From: a virus | Virus record (IMG/VR): IMGVR_UViG_3300013093_000236 | Coordinates: 1-26,218 of that record | Length of the DNA: 26,218 nt | Reading direction: 5' to 3' (one strand) | Shown: positions 4,607 to 23,112 of the stretch, in pieces | Position numbering within the stretch: position 1 is the stretch's first letter | Layout: every line of letters starts with the position of its first letter | The notes under the pieces: model-generated | Databases searched by the model: none | Seen by the model: the letters and a program-made list of their open reading frames with translations, nothing else | Told to the model about the DNA's origin: nothing | Position numbers and translations under genes: made by a program

Positions 4607-5851
4607 TTATGGATTACCAACTAATCCTTCGATGATAGCCAGAGTATTGGCATAAGTTGCAGGCAAATTTGCGCCTGAATCATTGAAAGATAAAGAGGTA
4701 GTATTGAAGAAGATCGATTCTTGTCCGGCAGAAGTACCGCGATAAACGTTATAGCTTACTGCGCCAGTCACTGAGGTCCATGATACGGTTACAGAATTGT
4801 TAGCGCCGCTTGTAGTGGCATTCACTTCCGAGCTTCCTACGGTTTCACCAACAGCATCAACTGCGGTAACTTTGTAGTAGTAAGTACCATTTGAAAGGCT
4901 GCCACCTGATGCTGCGCTTGCTGCCACGCCTGATGGAGTTGCAGTTGCTGCATAAGCAGTGCTTGAGCCTGGTACAGTTCCAGCAGTACCTGCGGCACCG
5001 GTATCGGTATAGTTCAAGTTGGTAGTATTGAAGTAAGAGCTTTCAGCGCCTGCTGCTGTGCCTTTGTAAACACGATACGAAACTGCGCCTGCTGCTGCCG
5101 TCCATGCGATTGTTACCGAGCTGGTTGAGCCAGTAGTAGTTGCTGTTACTTCCGAGCTACCGATAGTTGTACCTTGTCCGTCAACGCTCACCACTTTGTA
5201 ATAGTAAGTATTTGCAGCCATTGTACCGCCAGTAGTAGATGGAGTAGCAGATACACCGGTAGGAACGGCAGTCGCTGTACGTGCTGTGCCTACTGTTGGA
5301 ACAGTTGCAGCAGTACCGATTGGTGATACCGGAATAAACAATGCGCGCGGTGGATATGGCTCACGTAGTTTTGATGGTGGGCCTAATTTCAACTTCCAGC
5401 CACCTTCGATGGTTTCGTCAGTTGGGTTACGCTCGCCATCAATAATGATCATCCCGTTATTTGCACCGAATACCTCAATCGCGCTGTCTCCTGATTTGTA
5501 GTTATTCACTACAATGGCCTTAACACGACCGAAACCGGCAGCCTGAATCATATTTTTGATTGCAGTTGAGTTACCGGCGATATTCCAGTCAATTTCCTCA
5601 ACATAGCGCGGCCCAACCTGCGTTGATACCAATTTTGAAGAGCTTCCAAAGCTGTTATTTGTGCCGGTAAACTTCCACAGTTTAGCGCCATTTACAGGCG
5701 TTATCCCGTTTACCAGAAGCGGGTTAGTTGGATCGTAGCTCAGGACAAAGTCATTCTCGTTGAAGAGATATAACCAATCCTCCAGCCCCGATACAATAGG
5801 CGCGTCTTGCCCTATTTTGTAACCGCTTGCTATTTTATTGTAAACACTCAT
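4607..5851 (-). CDS. Virion protein (tail tube or capsid decoration) with two FN3-like repeats
   Basis: The protein has 414 residues. Residues 1-175 form a unique domain (VSGLEDWLYLFNENDF, then GGWKLKLGPPS) that I do not recognise with certainty. Two tandem FN3/Ig-like repeats follow, at about 197-285 and 303-393. Each has the pattern NxTYYYKV, GSSEV, SVT(I/V)xWT, GAVSYxVY(K/R)GT and FFNTT or YFNTT, which shows an internal duplication. It lies directly after the major capsid gene and is bracketed by two strong stem-loops, which suggests an abundant virion component. Many phages carry Ig-like domains on the tail tube or on decoration proteins, where they give weak binding to glycans. The position fits either role. 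The short C-terminal tail (ANTLAIIEGLVGNP) lies outside the repeats. Confidence 0.6.
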   Translation of the reverse strand: MSVYNKIASGYKIGQDAPIVSGLEDWLYLFNENDFVLSYDPTNPLLVNGITPVNGAKLWKFTGTNNSFGSSSKLVSTQVGPRYVEEIDWNIAGNSTAIKNMIQAAGFGRVKAIVVNNYKSGDSAIEVFGANNGMIIIDGERNPTDETIEGGWKLKLGPPSKLREPYPPRALFIPVSPIGTAATVPTVGTARTATAVPTGVSATPSTTGGTMAANTYYYKVVSVDGQGTTIGSSEVTATTTGSTSSVTIAWTAAAGAVSYRVYKGTAAGAESSYFNTTNLNYTDTGAAGTAGTVPGSSTAYAATATPSGVAASAASGGSLSNGTYYYKVTAVDAVGETVGSSEVNATTSGANNSVTVSWTSVTGAVSYNVYRGTSAGQESIFFNTTSLSFNDSGANLPATYANTLAIIEGLVGNP

Positions 5852-8808: not shown

Positions 8809-8843
8809 AATTAACCAATTATAAAACCTGATGAAGAAGAGAG

Positions 8844-8916
8844 TTGCGGGAACATGACTCGAACATGCGACCTTCTGGTTATGAGCCAGACGAGCTACCA
8901 ACTGCTCCATCCCACA
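8844..8916 (-). tRNA. tRNA-Met (anticodon CAT)
   Basis: A complete 73-base cloverleaf can be drawn. The acceptor stem is TGTGGGA/TCCCGCA (one G-T pair). The D stem is GAGC/GCTC. The anticodon stem is TCTGG/CCAGA with loop CTCATAA and anticodon CAT at 8883-8881. The T stem is GCATG/CATGT with loop TTCGAGT, and the discriminator base is A. CCA is not encoded, since CTC follows. The anticodon CAT also fits tRNA-Ile2 after lysidine modification, but the overall sequence looks like an elongator tRNA-Met. It stands alone between tail and head genes, with a promoter candidate upstream and a terminator downstream. Confidence 0.93.
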
Positions 8917-11373: not shown

Positions 11374-14300
11374 TTAGTGGGTTACGCGGTCGAGTACTGT
11401 GGCCTTCACTTGTTGCTGATAGTTGATATCCTTCACATCAACTACCGGATTTGGCATGTTCATTACCGCATTAGAAATAACAGCACCCAGCGCGTTTAAA
11501 TCTTCGGAGTGCATCCTTGCTGCAACAGGTAATGCCTGGCGCAATCCATTATCAGGAGTTGGCAGATAACTACCAATTACACCACCCGATGCAAATGCCT
11601 GCTTGCCCCTTGTTGATGCAAACGCAACACCACCACCATATTCATTGATTGCCGATAGTAGCGGCCCGAATATCGCCGTTGATTTAGCATTGATAACGCT
11701 TTCGCCATTGGATAGCCGCGCATTCACACTATCACTTGTTCCCGTTCCGGGTCCTGATACTGGCCCATTACCAACATGAACGCCACCTGTTGCGTATGCT
11801 GGAGGTTTTTGAGCAGCGATAGCAGCAAGTTCAAGGGCGCCTTCAGCAATAATGAATGGCTCTGCTGCCGCGCCTGCAATTGGGCCTAATTCAGCAAATG
11901 TTTTCATAACAGCCTCGGCAGTATTGATAATTGTTTTGGTAATTGCCAATGCTTGTTCCTGCTTGAATTGCTTCTGTTTGGCTTTACCTTCCTGAACCCG
12001 ATATTTTTCCTCGATTGCAGCACGCTGGGTATTTGTAAGTGATGCATTATTTAATTCAAATGTCTTTTCGCGATTCATTGCGGCCATTTTGTATTCAAAC
12101 TCGCTTGCCATTGCATTTTTAATAATATCAAATGCGGCATTTTGAATAAGCCCAGCCCATTGCATAGCTTTCTGCATTTCCTTTCGCCTGTATTCATCAT
12201 TCAACGCCTGGCTTGCATCCAAATACTGCTGCTCCAATACTAACTTTTCGGCATTTGTCAATCTTTCATTGCTTACTTCGGCATTGTATTTATCAAGTAA
12301 TGCTTTCTGTTCAGCATCCAATAATGCTTTATCTGCTGAATTGGTGCCCGATTTATCGGCTCGTTTTGCCTGAAATACAGCTACCTGATCATTTAGTTCA
12401 GTCTGCCGGTCATTATATGCCTTTTGTATTTCGGCTTTTTGCTTTTCAAATGCATTAATTTTTCCGAGCCATATATCTTGCGCGTTACTCAGCAAATTAG
12501 TGAGCTGGCTATAATGTTCTTTCAATGCGGATTTTTCGTCACCTTGCGCCTGATTATATTGCGCCTTTACCATTGCGAGCTGTTCGCTAAGATCGTCATG
12601 CTGCTTTTTGTATTCTTGTGCTGCGATAGTTTCCTGCTCATCAACATTTGCCAACTGCTGCTGCAATACATTACGCATTGCTGAAATACGCAACTTTACA
12701 ATCTCATCTTCGCCTTTTTGAACTTGTTCTGCTACTTTTTTGTAGTAATCAGTTACCAATCGTTCACGGTCTGCATCTGCACCTTGCTTGTATGTATCGA
12801 TAAGCCCTTCCGCGCTGCTGATATTAAGAGCATATTGCGCTTTTGCTGCCGGGGATTTGCTTTTCGCGCTCAATTCCTGTTGCTTACGAATAAATTCTTG
12901 CTGTTTAAATATCAATTGGCGATAATGCTCATCGACTGTAGAAAGCTCTTTGCCAAAAGCATCCATTTGATCCTGGGCCATTTTCACCAATGCAGCTTGC
13001 CTTTCGTTTGCAAGTTGTTCGCCTGCACGAATTGCCTCTTCAAGTTCCTGTTTTGCTTTTTCGGCTTCCGCATCAGCTTTCATTTGCCTTGCATCCAGCC
13101 TATTCTGCGCCCGATCTTCGGTAGTTTCTTTAAATCTTTCGGCTGATGTTTGTGCTTCCTGTGCTTTTTGTATTGCAGCCAAACTACTGCCAGCGCCATT
13201 TTGATTTGCAAGGCCATGTATTTTATCCAAATATGCAGCATAAGCAATTCCCTTCTCGCGCAATTGCTGGATTTCGTCTGCGGTAAAATTTCTACCCGCA
13301 ACTGCTGACCTTACTGCCAATTCATATTCCGCATCAGCTATTTTTTTGCGCTGTTCGTATGATTGCGATGCTATTGCTTGTATTTGATTGAAATAGTCTT
13401 GTTCTTGTTCGGGAGTATTGCGCCTGTTACGCATCTTCAATTGCAAATCGGCAATGGCTGCATCAGCTTTGGCATTTGCTACTTCCAATATGCCTGCACT
13501 TCTCGCTAAATCCTGAAACTGTTGCTTTAATGCCGAGCCCTCTTTATAGGCCATACCCAAACTACTAAAGAAATCAGCCCATTTTTGCTTGAATTTATCG
13601 AAATTGTCATCCAAATGCTCATCCTGAAAGTTCGCTACAAATTGAGTCCAAACATTGCTTAACCCCGATGATACACGCTCTAATCTTTCTGCATTCGGCG
13701 TGATTTTAGCTAATGCAGCGCCAAATGCCACAACTACCGTAATAGCTGCAGCAATCCCTGCAACAACGCCCGCTATTGATCCTCCTAATGCTTCCGTTCC
13801 CGATACCGCTGCCGTTTCAGAGGCCGTCATGCCGTTAAAGCTCGATGTTGCCGACTGCAGGATTGTATTGAACTGCGTAAATCCAGGCGCAATCTTACCC
13901 AATACGCCATTTAGTCCGGACAGCACACTCGAATAATTACCTACATTGCGCTGATGGTTCCCGAGCTGAGCGTCAAATTTCTTTAACTGAGCATTGAGGG
14001 TATTGTATTGTGCAATTTGTTGCTGAATAGCAGGGTTACTGCTGGTAAACCCGCCTTCAGCCGATTTGATTGCCCGACCCAACGCTGTAAGCTGCTTTTG
14101 CGCGGCATCATAACTACCAACAGCGGCCTCTGTTGCTTGCTTGCTTTGCTTCAGGGCCTGATTAGCTTCGAGTATTGCTGTGCGCTTCTGCTGATATTCA
14201 GTTCGCGACTTTTGTGTTGCAACCCGTTCCTTTGCATATTCCGCATTTGCCTCGCTGGTAGCCGCTTTAGCTGCCGCAACTGCTGCCTTTAGATTTTTAA

Positions 14301-14412
14301 TTTCTGTCGCGGCGTTCTTTGCATCCTGCTGCAATTGTTGCATTGCGGATTGCGCGTCCTGATTGGCAATATCAATCTGAACGAGAACCTGTTTATTTAA
14401 ATCGTCTGCCAT
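11374..14412 (-). CDS. Tail tape measure protein
   Basis: The protein has 1012 residues and is mostly alpha-helical. Long coiled coils cover about 15-150 and 290-800, rich in A, Q, K and E. A hydrophobic segment at about 211-235 (GSIAGVVAGIAAAITVVVAF) could cross the host inner membrane during DNA entry. The C-terminal part has GTGTSDSVNARLSNGESVIN, a motif common near the end of tape measure proteins. The protein sets tail length. At the usual rule of about 0.15 nm per residue this one would specify a tail near 150 nm, which suggests a siphovirus. No lysozyme or peptidase domain is evident. The gene follows two small genes and precedes the large tail protein. Confidence 0.88.
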   Translation of the reverse strand: MADDLNKQVLVQIDIANQDAQSAMQQLQQDAKNAATEIKNLKAAVAAAKAATSEANAEYAKERVATQKSRTEYQQKRTAILEANQALKQSKQATEAAVGSYDAAQKQLTALGRAIKSAEGGFTSSNPAIQQQIAQYNTLNAQLKKFDAQLGNHQRNVGNYSSVLSGLNGVLGKIAPGFTQFNTILQSATSSFNGMTASETAAVSGTEALGGSIAGVVAGIAAAITVVVAFGAALAKITPNAERLERVSSGLSNVWTQFVANFQDEHLDDNFDKFKQKWADFFSSLGMAYKEGSALKQQFQDLARSAGILEVANAKADAAIADLQLKMRNRRNTPEQEQDYFNQIQAIASQSYEQRKKIADAEYELAVRSAVAGRNFTADEIQQLREKGIAYAAYLDKIHGLANQNGAGSSLAAIQKAQEAQTSAERFKETTEDRAQNRLDARQMKADAEAEKAKQELEEAIRAGEQLANERQAALVKMAQDQMDAFGKELSTVDEHYRQLIFKQQEFIRKQQELSAKSKSPAAKAQYALNISSAEGLIDTYKQGADADRERLVTDYYKKVAEQVQKGEDEIVKLRISAMRNVLQQQLANVDEQETIAAQEYKKQHDDLSEQLAMVKAQYNQAQGDEKSALKEHYSQLTNLLSNAQDIWLGKINAFEKQKAEIQKAYNDRQTELNDQVAVFQAKRADKSGTNSADKALLDAEQKALLDKYNAEVSNERLTNAEKLVLEQQYLDASQALNDEYRRKEMQKAMQWAGLIQNAAFDIIKNAMASEFEYKMAAMNREKTFELNNASLTNTQRAAIEEKYRVQEGKAKQKQFKQEQALAITKTIINTAEAVMKTFAELGPIAGAAAEPFIIAEGALELAAIAAQKPPAYATGGVHVGNGPVSGPGTGTSDSVNARLSNGESVINAKSTAIFGPLLSAINEYGGGVAFASTRGKQAFASGGVIGSYLPTPDNGLRQALPVAARMHSEDLNALGAVISNAVMNMPNPVVDVKDINYQQQVKATVLDRVTH

Positions 14413-14769: not shown

Positions 14770-15171
14770 TTATTCGGTGATTTCAGATTCCGACTTTGCT
14801 TTACGCGAATATTTGCGTTTTGCTTTTTCCTCGGCGGGTTGTTCGCTGTCATCAGCATCTTCGCTGTCCGTCTCAGCCGAAAAACTTACCTCGTCGCCAA
14901 TCGATACGCCTTCATCTACAAGTTCGGGATTGTTATCCAAATCTTCCTGAGTGATGGTGTGTTCGATTTCGGGTTCGGTATCTTCCGGGGCTTCGGTTTC
15001 AGGCCATTCGAAAGTCGAAGGTGCTTCCTCATCATCGATTGGGGTGTAAACTTCCTCCGCGTCATCTGACCCGTGCTGGGCGATTCGCGTGATATGCGCA
15101 TGTAGGGACTGCGCTTCCCATTTGTTTAATTTTAACCCCGACTTTACGAGGTCTGCGTGTGTTAGGTGCAT
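14770..15171 (-). CDS. Acidic protein of unknown function
   Basis: The protein has 133 residues. A short N-terminal segment (about 1-35) with MHLTHADLVKSGLKLNKWEA is followed by a long acidic, low-complexity stretch (about 37-113, dominated by D, E, S, T and P). It then ends in a basic cluster (KAKRKYSRKAK). Such acidic-then-basic tails occur in phage assembly proteins and scaffolds. Lying two genes before the tape measure, it could be a tail assembly factor. That is inference from position only. Confidence 0.6.
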   Translation of the reverse strand: MHLTHADLVKSGLKLNKWEAQSLHAHITRIAQHGSDDAEEVYTPIDDEEAPSTFEWPETEAPEDTEPEIEHTITQEDLDNNPELVDEGVSIGDEVSFSAETDSEDADDSEQPAEEKAKRKYSRKAKSESEITE

Positions 15172-20462: not shown

Positions 20463-20632
20463 TAATAACCCGGTATAAATGCCTTCGGTTTGATTATTCC
20501 CATGCCCAATATATTATTCCGCTTTTCGATTACCCATTGTCTGCCAATTTTATAATCATCTAAAGTCAAATAAAAAATAGAACTCGTGCCATCAATATAA
20601 GCAATATAAACAGTCAGCAATTCGGCACTCAT
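20462..20632 (-). CDS. 56-residue protein of unknown function
   Basis: From ATG 20632 this frame reads MSAELLTVYIAYIDGTSSIF and ends KPKAFIPGY. It looks like a small beta-sheet protein (alternating hydrophobics, IFYLTLDDYKIGRQWVIEK). The ATG overlaps the stop of the chaperone-like frameshift product (ATGA), and its stop overlaps the start of the 41-residue gene (TAATG). Tight coupling and protein-like composition support it. Its function is unknown. Confidence 0.55.
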   Translation of the reverse strand: MSAELLTVYIAYIDGTSSIFYLTLDDYKIGRQWVIEKRNNILGMGIIKPKAFIPGY

Positions 20633-21479
20633 CTCGACTTCCCCCCGTTCGCCATTGCCTGCTTCTCCATCAATTCCTGGTATTTCTTTTGATATGCCGC
20701 CTCAACTTTATTCATATACTGTTTTAGAAAGAATTGATCGTAGGGTAGCATCATTACTGAATCCCACCTCAACACATCACCACCGGCTAATGAATTTACC
20801 GCATTATAGAACCCGAACGCTTCAAACGACTCAATGCCCGCGCGTTTCTCCAACTCTGACGGAGCCGATCCCAGAACTTTATTTTCTGTTGCAATAAGTT
20901 CGGATAGTTCAAAAAAAAACTACGTGCCACTGGCAGCGCAACTGAAAGCGGCAATGCATGCACTTGTGTGACAAACGCCTCAGCATCTTGTTCCCTGTAT
21001 GCCTTACCCGTTACCGGATAGTAAAAGTAATGCGCCAGTACTAACGCCATACTTTCAAGCGAGGGATGCCAATTGTCCTTCCAATTTTCGCCATATTCTT
21101 TCTCAGCTTTATTGCACTCTTCCGCTATCACATTGCGTGATGCCAAAAATGCACCGGCTGGCTCCATTGATAAGTTACGGGGAATGCGTATCCTCCTGTT
21201 CCCAAACTCCACATATTCCGGCAGCTTCCCACCATCATATTCGTATTTGATTTGATGGGCAATGCTTTCAACGCGATGGCCTATTTCCTCTAAATCCCGA
21301 ACGTTAATAATATTGTCTGAAACTTCGCGTGTCAGGCTAGGTATAATCGGATTTGCTTCCGCAATCTCTGGATCCATCTTTTGCGCCTCAATCATCTGCC
21401 CAATCGTTATCTCCGATAGGCTGGTAGGAATGCTGATTCGGACTTTCCCCTTAGTAGTTCGTACAGTTTTAGTTAGCAT
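20629..21479 (-). CDS. Tail assembly chaperone-like protein, -1 frameshift candidate
   Basis: The zero frame runs from ATG 21479 to a stop at 20796 (227 residues). At codons 187-190 it reads AGT TTT TTT TTG, a run of nine T (20919-20911). A -1 slip there enters a frame open for 93 more codons, to the stop at 20629, giving a 283-residue fusion. The extension (for example EAFGFYNAVNSLAGGDVLRW, then LPYDQFF) is clearly protein-like, and the -1 frame has no ATG before residue VMM, only a TTG, so it is not an independent gene by normal rules. Phage tail assembly chaperones, lambda gpG/gpGT being the model, use this arrangement. It is not directly before the tape measure, which is unusual. A plain frameshift mutation or homopolymer error is the main alternative. 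Confidence 0.65.
20911..20920 (-). other. Slippery run (nine T) for -1 frameshifting
   Basis: On the minus strand G is followed by nine T and then G. In the zero frame the codons are AGT TTT TTT TTG, which contains the heptamer T TTT TTG of the X XXY YYZ type. Both tRNAs can re-pair after a -1 slip. A homopolymer of this length also permits RNA polymerase slippage. Confidence 0.65.
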
Positions 21480-21559: not shown

Positions 21560-21886
21560 CTACATCATATCATACGTCACCAATTCCTGCACCGAACGAA
21601 ATACAGGAATGCCATTCGCCAGCGCCAATTCAACCTCGGCATCAGCGCCTTTACTCTCGCTATCATCAAACCGTAGCAAATAATCGCAGGCCAAAACCCA
21701 TATATTATCCAGTTTCGTCCAAACTTCATAAGGTTGCGGATGCGCCATGTGCTGAAAATGGCTGTATAGTGGCACAAACGGTGCATAGCCTAAAATAATA
21801 AGCTCATTTGCAATATCCATTTGCCTTTTAACATTGACCGCTACATCTCCCTTAGTGTATGCGCTCGCTATATATACTTTTTTCAT
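21560..21886 (-). CDS. DUF4406/nucleoside deoxyribosyltransferase-like protein
   Basis: The protein has 108 residues. It begins MKKVYIASAYTKGDV, the first strand and glycine-poor loop of a small Rossmann-like fold. It continues with a helix (NVKRQMDIANELIILGYAPF), then VPLYSHF, WVLACDYLLRFDDSESKGAD and AEVELALANGIPVFRS. The ESKGADAEVELA helix with its acidic pair is where the catalytic Glu lies in nucleoside 2-deoxyribosyltransferases. DUF4406 members are common in phages and probably act in nucleotide metabolism or base modification. The gene sits between the large terminase and the chaperone-like gene, which is an odd place for a metabolic enzyme. Confidence 0.75.
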   Translation of the reverse strand: MKKVYIASAYTKGDVAVNVKRQMDIANELIILGYAPFVPLYSHFQHMAHPQPYEVWTKLDNIWVLACDYLLRFDDSESKGADAEVELALANGIPVFRSVQELVTYDMM

Positions 21887-21900
21887 ATCGTGTCGGTGGC

Positions 21901-23112
21901 CTACAACATCCCCCTCATCTCCCTGGGCACGTATGCATCATGCACGTGCGCGAGTTTCATTTTGTGTGCGCCGGTATTCGCTATTTTTAATTTGTTTAGG
22001 GCTACGTAGCGGAGGGGGTCGATTAGGTGATTGAACCGATCTACTGGCTCATTGATTGTTTTACCTGAATTGTCAACGCGCCATTTATATAGCCCGAGTT
22101 CTTTACGCAGAAAAACACTACGCTGGGTTATATTTATGCGGTATCGCTTTAGTATATCAATACCGTTCTTTATCGAATCAGGACCTTTGGATGCGGGCAC
22201 CACGTACCAACCCATGCGCTTCAATTCCTCGATACTTTTTGGCTCTGCGCTATCTGCAATAATTTCGGAAGTTCTCGTAATTCCCAATTCACTGAGCTTT
22301 TTTGAAATATCGTTATTGGTAAGCCCTGTTTCGTAAATCAGTTCATCAACCCACAACTCCCCATCCTGCATATAAACATCAATCAACCCCGTTTCGTCAT
22401 TGGTAAATCCAAAGTCGAGCCCGAGGGCAATATGCTTCGCTCCAGCGGGAACTCTATCAACTACAAACCAATTATTAAACACAAGCCCGGTAATCTTTCC
22501 TGTTGCACCTCGCGCATATACTTTCCAAAGCTCAATGTCGATATCTTTAAGCGCCTCGATTTTATCGCGCATGATTTTTGGCAGAAATGGGTTATGCCGA
22601 TGATCTGAAATAATAAGTTCCACGCCATCGCGGCCCAACAAATTATCATGCACCCAAAATTCACTATTCGGGTTATAGTCTATAAATATTCGCTTTTTAG
22701 TACGCAGCGCAAGTTCTGAATATACTTCAAACTCAAGTCCATTAGCCTCGTTAACAAATAGATAATCTCGCTTGCCTGATTTAGCATCCTGCGCATCATC
22801 ATAACTTTTGAATTCGATAATAGTTCCGTTATTAAATTCGAATATCCTTTCAGATTTATTATAAGATTTAACCTGCCCCCGCAGCTCCTCCGAGTTGCCA
22901 TAAATATTCAATGCATCCCTAAGTGCCCCCGCTTTTAAGTTCGGGATATCCTGGCCAACAACGGTGATAATTTGATTTGAATTTGCGCAGGCAATAAGAA
23001 ACAATACCTGCAGAATAGAATAAGTCTTTCCGCTCGAAGTGCCGCCCTGATTTACAACGACATTGGATTTCGACTCGTAGTTCTTTTTAAATATGATTGA
23101 TGTTTCAAACAT
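21901..23112 (-). CDS. terL: Terminase large subunit
   Basis: The protein has 403 residues. Walker A is at 23-30 (GGTSSGKT), and Walker B ends in the catalytic Glu at 116-122 (DYLFVNE). A coupling region follows (RIFIDYNPNSEFWVHDNLL). The C-terminal RNase H-like nuclease has its acidic residues at D233 (ALGLDFGFTND), D287 (IIADSAEPKS) and D365 (NHLIDPLRY). This is the PBSX/Terminase_3 type. The enzyme packages DNA into the prohead through the portal and cuts the concatemer. Its first codons overlap the end of the small subunit gene by 8 bases. Length and all catalytic residues look intact. Confidence 0.95.
   Translation of the reverse strand: MFETSIIFKKNYESKSNVVVNQGGTSSGKTYSILQVLFLIACANSNQIITVVGQDIPNLKAGALRDALNIYGNSEELRGQVKSYNKSERIFEFNNGTIIEFKSYDDAQDAKSGKRDYLFVNEANGLEFEVYSELALRTKKRIFIDYNPNSEFWVHDNLLGRDGVELIISDHRHNPFLPKIMRDKIEALKDIDIELWKVYARGATGKITGLVFNNWFVVDRVPAGAKHIALGLDFGFTNDETGLIDVYMQDGELWVDELIYETGLTNNDISKKLSELGITRTSEIIADSAEPKSIEELKRMGWYVVPASKGPDSIKNGIDILKRYRINITQRSVFLRKELGLYKWRVDNSGKTINEPVDRFNHLIDPLRYVALNKLKIANTGAHKMKLAHVHDAYVPREMRGML

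Follow-up and report, generated by a model that had tools for sequence, protein, structure and literature searches.

A conserved −1 frame switch at a T-run in a post-terminase gene of Bacteroidota phages, a candidate tail assembly chaperone

In the 26,218-base stretch of an IMG/VR virus record analysed here (the window), the minus-strand gene at 21479–20629 carries a run of nine T (T9), at which a programmed −1 change of reading frame is strongly supported by comparative sequence analysis, the frame switch being shared by considerably more than 100 related phages and prophages. The gene is predicted to make two proteins, i.e. a short one composed of an N domain and a dispensable zero-frame tail, and a longer N–C fusion that, judging from conservation, would result from a net shift of −1 in the reading frame at the T-run.

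The run (A9 at 20911–20919, thus T9 on the minus strand) is the sole A/T homopolymer of eight or more in the window. Its −1 frame, bounded by a TAG immediately 5′ of the run and a stop at 20629, is open for 96 codons counted from the first T, or 93 after FFF, and no ATG occurs among the first 50 of them; the zero frame stops 37 codons past codon 190. The original prediction had described nine T at codons 187–190 with the codons TTT TTT TTG, a −1 frame open for 93 codons and the lack of an own ATG in that frame, all of which was found, the last for the first 50 codons; it also had the zero frame stop soon after the run, at 38 codons. The 25 ORFs of the window hold 26 in-register X_XXY_YYZ sites, two of which overlap in the T9 run; the −1 frame at these two is by far the longest (96 and 95 codons, the next site having 62) and extends 164 nt beyond the zero-frame stop, compared with at most 23 nt at the other sites. 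The predicted junction peptide of the fusion is FFFELSELIATENK.

Table 1. Coordinates of the frameshift gene, its slip site and the neighbouring late genes in the window
Feature	Position	Strand	Remarks
Zero-frame ORF	20796..21479	−	227-aa short product; N domain of ~187 aa and 40-aa zero-frame tail
−1 frame extension	20629..20919	−	96 codons and stop; C domain of the predicted long fusion product
T9 slippery run	20911..20919	−	reads AGT TTT TTT TTG, codons 187–190
In-register heptamer T_TTT_TTT	20913..20919	−	T_TTT_TTY in every homologue with the −1 offset
Terminase large subunit	21901..23112	−	Pfam Terminase_3C/Terminase_3, phrog_2; block directly upstream
Conserved next gene, 173 aa	19569..20090	−	common to 7/10 related loci; read as tail-terminator-like
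Neck/tail-completion-like gene, 152 aa	19081..19539	−	phrog_31246
Tail tape measure protein	11374..14412	−	phrog_18891 and phrog_25241

When either half was searched directly, viral contigs yielded no relative and a single weak phage match was obtained; relatives were instead reached through the upstream terminase, by which 80 viral and 15 genome loci were fetched, mostly Mucilaginibacter where a host was named. Profile searches located both halves in 69 of these loci, and in 68 of the 69 the C half lies in the −1 frame with an in-register T_TTT_TTY at the junction (T_TTT_TTT in 65 and T_TTT_TTC in 3); the exception is an Adhaeribacter locus (L096) with T10 and a single frame. The −1 offset and T_TTT_TTY were then found in 64 of 64 copies from genomes of Sphingobacteriaceae and other Bacteroidota sampled later, which were drawn after the rule had been seen and include a few copies of genomes already seen. 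Of the Sphingobacteriaceae genomes sampled, 61 of 301 carried the C half, as did 8 of 395 genomes sampled across the phylum. The alignment of homologues proposed with the original prediction thus showed both the T-run and the −1 offset to be conserved. Three copies are unusual: with one T fewer the Adhaeribacter T10 copy (L096:7356–8102) would give the usual short form with a tail of ~40 codons; a Mucilaginibacter prophage copy (L097:6822–7394) is without the C half, has its N part truncated before the T-run and looks like a decayed prophage; and a relative of the single-frame form in Bacteroides phage BS-TP3 (PQ571276.1, 44395–44919) is labelled 'TrkA-N domain protein', probably a misannotation.

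Selection around the slip site was analysed on 19 related sequences, across which the divergence of the heptamer was 0.0. The variable codon position moves from the zero-frame third upstream of the site (0.51–0.52) to the −1-frame third downstream (0.54), and this change of frame at the run supports programmed −1 recoding; together with the conservation across the wide family, it bears out what had been predicted from the window. The −1-frame four-fold sites are conserved in the ~20 codons 3′ of the run (0.89 and 0.69) and fall to 0.29–0.49 thereafter, which may reflect an element acting at the RNA level or, alternatively, a start of the zero-frame tail that is itself functional. The remainder of that tail is dispensable, since the tail is only 7 codons long in locus L014 and 22 in L094 versus ~40 in most of the group. 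As for a downstream stimulatory hairpin, single-sequence folds were inconsistent (z from −2.3 to +1.5) and RNAalifold gave no consensus downstream structure; a 5′ hairpin, GGGT/GCCC, in the branch with seven T (T7) showed no compensatory change.

That an indel or a homopolymer sequencing error explains the offset is next to inconceivable: homopolymers are prone to error and the Adhaeribacter T10 copy reads in one frame, but the identical offset recurs in 131 copies from many projects, complete genomes included, and is kept with T6C, T7, T8, T9 and T10 runs, so that this candidate was excluded by the conservation of the offset. Single-frame relatives, which the original prediction had taken as a sign of such an error, do occur, namely in Elizabethkingia phage TCUEAP1, in the gut contig MT836763 and in Adhaeribacter with T10, but these are distant minority lineages and do not make the T9 of the window an error. 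Two genes translated separately, the second from a start within the −1 frame, are very improbable as well. GenBank does start gene 39 of Nonlabens/Persicivirga phage P12024S at an internal ATG, and a TTG start is possible in the window, but the −1 protein is conserved from the T-run onwards (FFxxLSxL), thus from a point upstream of any ATG, for which reason independent translation of the −1 part was rejected; moreover, the T-run would then need no conserving.

Between the frameshift gene and the start of the tape measure gene at 14412 lie 6.2 kb and ~12 ORFs, so the distance of about 6 kb given in the original prediction was real but its count of 16 genes was too high; the distance is family-wide, being ~5–9 kb in nine relatives and TCUEAP1. 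The order common to most relatives is terminase, frameshift gene, terminator-like gene, neck/tail-completion-like gene, large tail gene, (distal tail gene) and tape measure gene. The 173-aa next gene matched no Pfam or PHROG family, and the P12024S gene at a position like that of the 152-aa gene matched phrog_5, 'tail completion or Neck1', at 4e-4. Other features of the region on the minus strand include a nucleoside 2-deoxyribosyltransferase-like gene (21560–21886; phrog_355, 3e-18) between the terminase and the frameshift gene, absent from the ten relatives compared; a tRNA-Met(CAT) gene (8843–8916) in the late region just upstream of a protease gene; and a candidate major tail protein (4607–5851) with Ig-like repeats, a weak match, located between the capsid and portal genes and far from the tape measure gene.

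Sequence and structure comparisons were made for both parts of the gene. The frameshift gene matched no chaperone family in Pfam, PHROG and NCBIfam, so that the HMM check of both parts proposed with the original prediction came out negative, and neither sequence searches of the PDB nor Foldseek/VIA searches supported a chaperone. By hhalign no match was obtained to Mu gp41, P2 gpE, lambda gpG or HK97 gp13, and a match was obtained to P12024S gene 38 (E 7e-12). Structure models were made without templates and with the two halves folded separately; the N model (pLDDT 86.7) had structural matches only among uncharacterised phage proteins, the C model reached pLDDT 75, and neither gave a useful structural match. 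The rows returned by VIA (FERM domains and others, Z up to 3.5) were set aside as background. Both model halves match one and the same viral protein, A0A6J5N3F3, which is a single chain, and this speaks for the fusion being a real protein. The known chaperone families are mutually dissimilar in sequence (PMC5009743).

Taken with its context, the gene probably works like a tail assembly chaperone, i.e. it would most likely act as lambda gpG/gpGT does, in that it would bind the tape measure protein and recruit tail subunits. The chaperone assignment of the original prediction is thus favoured by the long tail of the phage, the layout, the late-gene context with the tape measure gene in the same block, and the tail-completion neighbours, and has no sequence or fold match; since the gene does not adjoin the tape measure gene and no homology was found, we do not file it as a chaperone member. 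The alternative that the recoding is real but the protein is something else, such as a head–tail connector or another morphogenesis factor beside the terminase, seems unlikely. It would agree with the missing sequence and fold matches to chaperones, with the position of the gene beside the terminase and a tail-completion-type gene, 5–9 kb from the tape measure gene, and with the existence of single-frame versions; on the other hand, chaperones of long-tailed phages are classically laid out as a frameshift gene with two products in the late block, and no other conserved gene to fill the role was seen by the tape measure gene in the relatives. A second chaperone candidate there in the window, the ORF at 14858–14433, was not found in 20 related genomes or records by a search that had no positive control; this ORF and that at 15171–14770, both on the minus strand before the tape measure gene, overlap by 89 nt with a +1 offset.

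The slip sites of the 131 copies fall into two classes. Copies without an upstream GGAGG comprise 65 T9, 3 T10 and 3 T6C runs, and those with GGAGG ending 19 nt upstream comprise 55 T7, 4 T8 and 1 T9; the window belongs to the T9 class without GGAGG. Among the copies without GGAGG, 17 of 19 clusters defined at <45% identity have a run of precisely nine T, and the T9 runs occupy three registers relative to the frame, (0,2), (1,1) and (2,0). When 3′ flanks were shuffled among clusters, 0 of 20,000 permutations were as good for a run length of nine, a p-value that overstates independence because the T9 clusters share ancestry and registers (0,2) and (1,1) may each have arisen only a few times. 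In the remainder of these loci, A/T runs of nine are rarer than the Markov expectation (8 versus ~20). A tree with long branches joins the T9 members across very long ones and nests T7 inside T9.

The GGAGG (context GGGTNANGGAGGCRCTGCCC) lies exactly 19 nt 5′ of the run in 60 copies of a Mucilaginibacter-type branch (loci L003–L012, L083–L094 and L212–L278), i.e. in all T7/T8 copies and in one T9 copy. Its synonymous sites are fixed, GAG being used in 17/17 versus 30% elsewhere in those genes, and ACG in 13/13 versus 17%. The 19-nt spacing is outside the 6–17 nt at which −1 stimulators were searched in E. coli (PMC4066793). Bacteroidota rarely use Shine–Dalgarno (SD) sequences, and the prfB frameshift, with its SD-like sequence, is present in all Sphingobacteriales analysed, so that recoding in these hosts can make use of an SD-like signal (PMC8710568).

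Two routes to the fusion have to be weighed. Slippage of bacterial RNA polymerase at nine A or T is established, nine being an efficient length, and U_UUU_UUU is less shifty than A_AAA_AAG in E. coli (PMC5009743). The feature of transcriptional slippage, an A/T homopolymer some nine or more long that is conserved as nucleotide sequence, is found in the window T9 and in the length of nine kept in three registers; that of −1 ribosomal frameshifting, an in-register X_XXY_YYZ, is found as T_TTT_TTY in all −1 members. Because the run length is nine in any register, polymerase slippage would take at least some part in the T9 members, and because in registers (1,1) and (2,0) the extra T's add no slippery heptamer, these point away from a ribosome-only route. 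Hence, the ribosomal −1 frameshift originally predicted is backed by the conserved in-register heptamer, but the apparent selection for T9 length points at least as much to RNA polymerase, and for the window transcriptional slippage has to be taken seriously as an alternative.

An entirely ribosomal −1 shift at T_TTT_TTT in every member, with the nine T produced by protein constraints on neighbouring codons and by descent, is a possible but somewhat doubtful account: it draws on the in-register heptamer in every −1 member, including the T7 and T6C runs below nine, and on the persistence of T9 within deep clades, by which descent may explain much, but it has to face the run of nine in three registers, two of them with extra T's that add no slippery heptamer, and the lower shiftiness of U_UUU_UUU relative to A_AAA_AAG in E. 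coli (PMC5009743). The preferred reading is class-specific. In the T9 members, the window included, the fusion would most likely arise at least in part through one extra U inserted by RNA polymerase as it transcribes the nine-T run, and the ribosome might slip at the in-register T_TTT_TTT as well, while the T7 sister branch and the T_TTT_TTC members would most likely be ribosomal, as their short runs (T7 and T6C) should need the ribosome, with the shift in the T7 branch presumably helped by the conserved GGAGG. The explanation as a whole, namely two products, a chaperone-like role and class-specific slippage or frameshifting, stands in our view at about even chances. That the same fusion was kept with its route switched, from ancestral polymerase slippage at T9 to ribosomal T7 with GGAGG in the Mucilaginibacter-phage branch, is put forward more tentatively.

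Open-licence papers were searched, and none was found that reports this gene, slippage in a gene for a tail chaperone, or a frameshift in phages of Mucilaginibacter. The gene may be a tail assembly chaperone of Bacteroidota phages that has gone unrecognised, and it joins phrog_32199 and phrog_38404, both of unknown function and split at the frameshift, into one gene; annotation would miss the fusion, since the halves are called separate hypothetical genes or one is dropped. In addition, one gene family offers a natural test of polymerase slippage versus ribosomal frameshifting, and its T7 branch adds to prfB another conserved SD-like signal for recoding, in a phylum in which SD sequences are rarely used (PMC8710568).

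The nearest relative in a cultured phage is the pair of genes 38 and 39 of P12024S, which is homologous, has the same post-terminase position, an in-register T_TTT_TTT within T9 and a −1 extension, but is annotated as two hypothetical genes and is only distantly similar to the window protein; the pair (L098:23136–23830) looks like one frameshift gene, which PHROGs splits between the two families above. Like Thermus dnaX (nine) and Shigella mxiE, the gene contains an A/T run leading to an extended or truncated product (PMC5009743); unlike them, it keeps its run of nine in different registers across a phage family, has a sister branch with T7 and GGAGG, and slips only putatively. With lambda gpG/gpGT, HK97 gp13/14, P2 gpE/E+E′ and Mu gp41/56 it shares the layout of a short protein with a frameshifted extension, by a programmed shift near the 3′ end, in the late block of a tailed phage (PMC5009743), but it differs from them in following the terminase at 5–9 kb from the tape measure gene instead of adjoining the latter, in its T-run slip site with two T-run classes, and in having no detectable sequence similarity.
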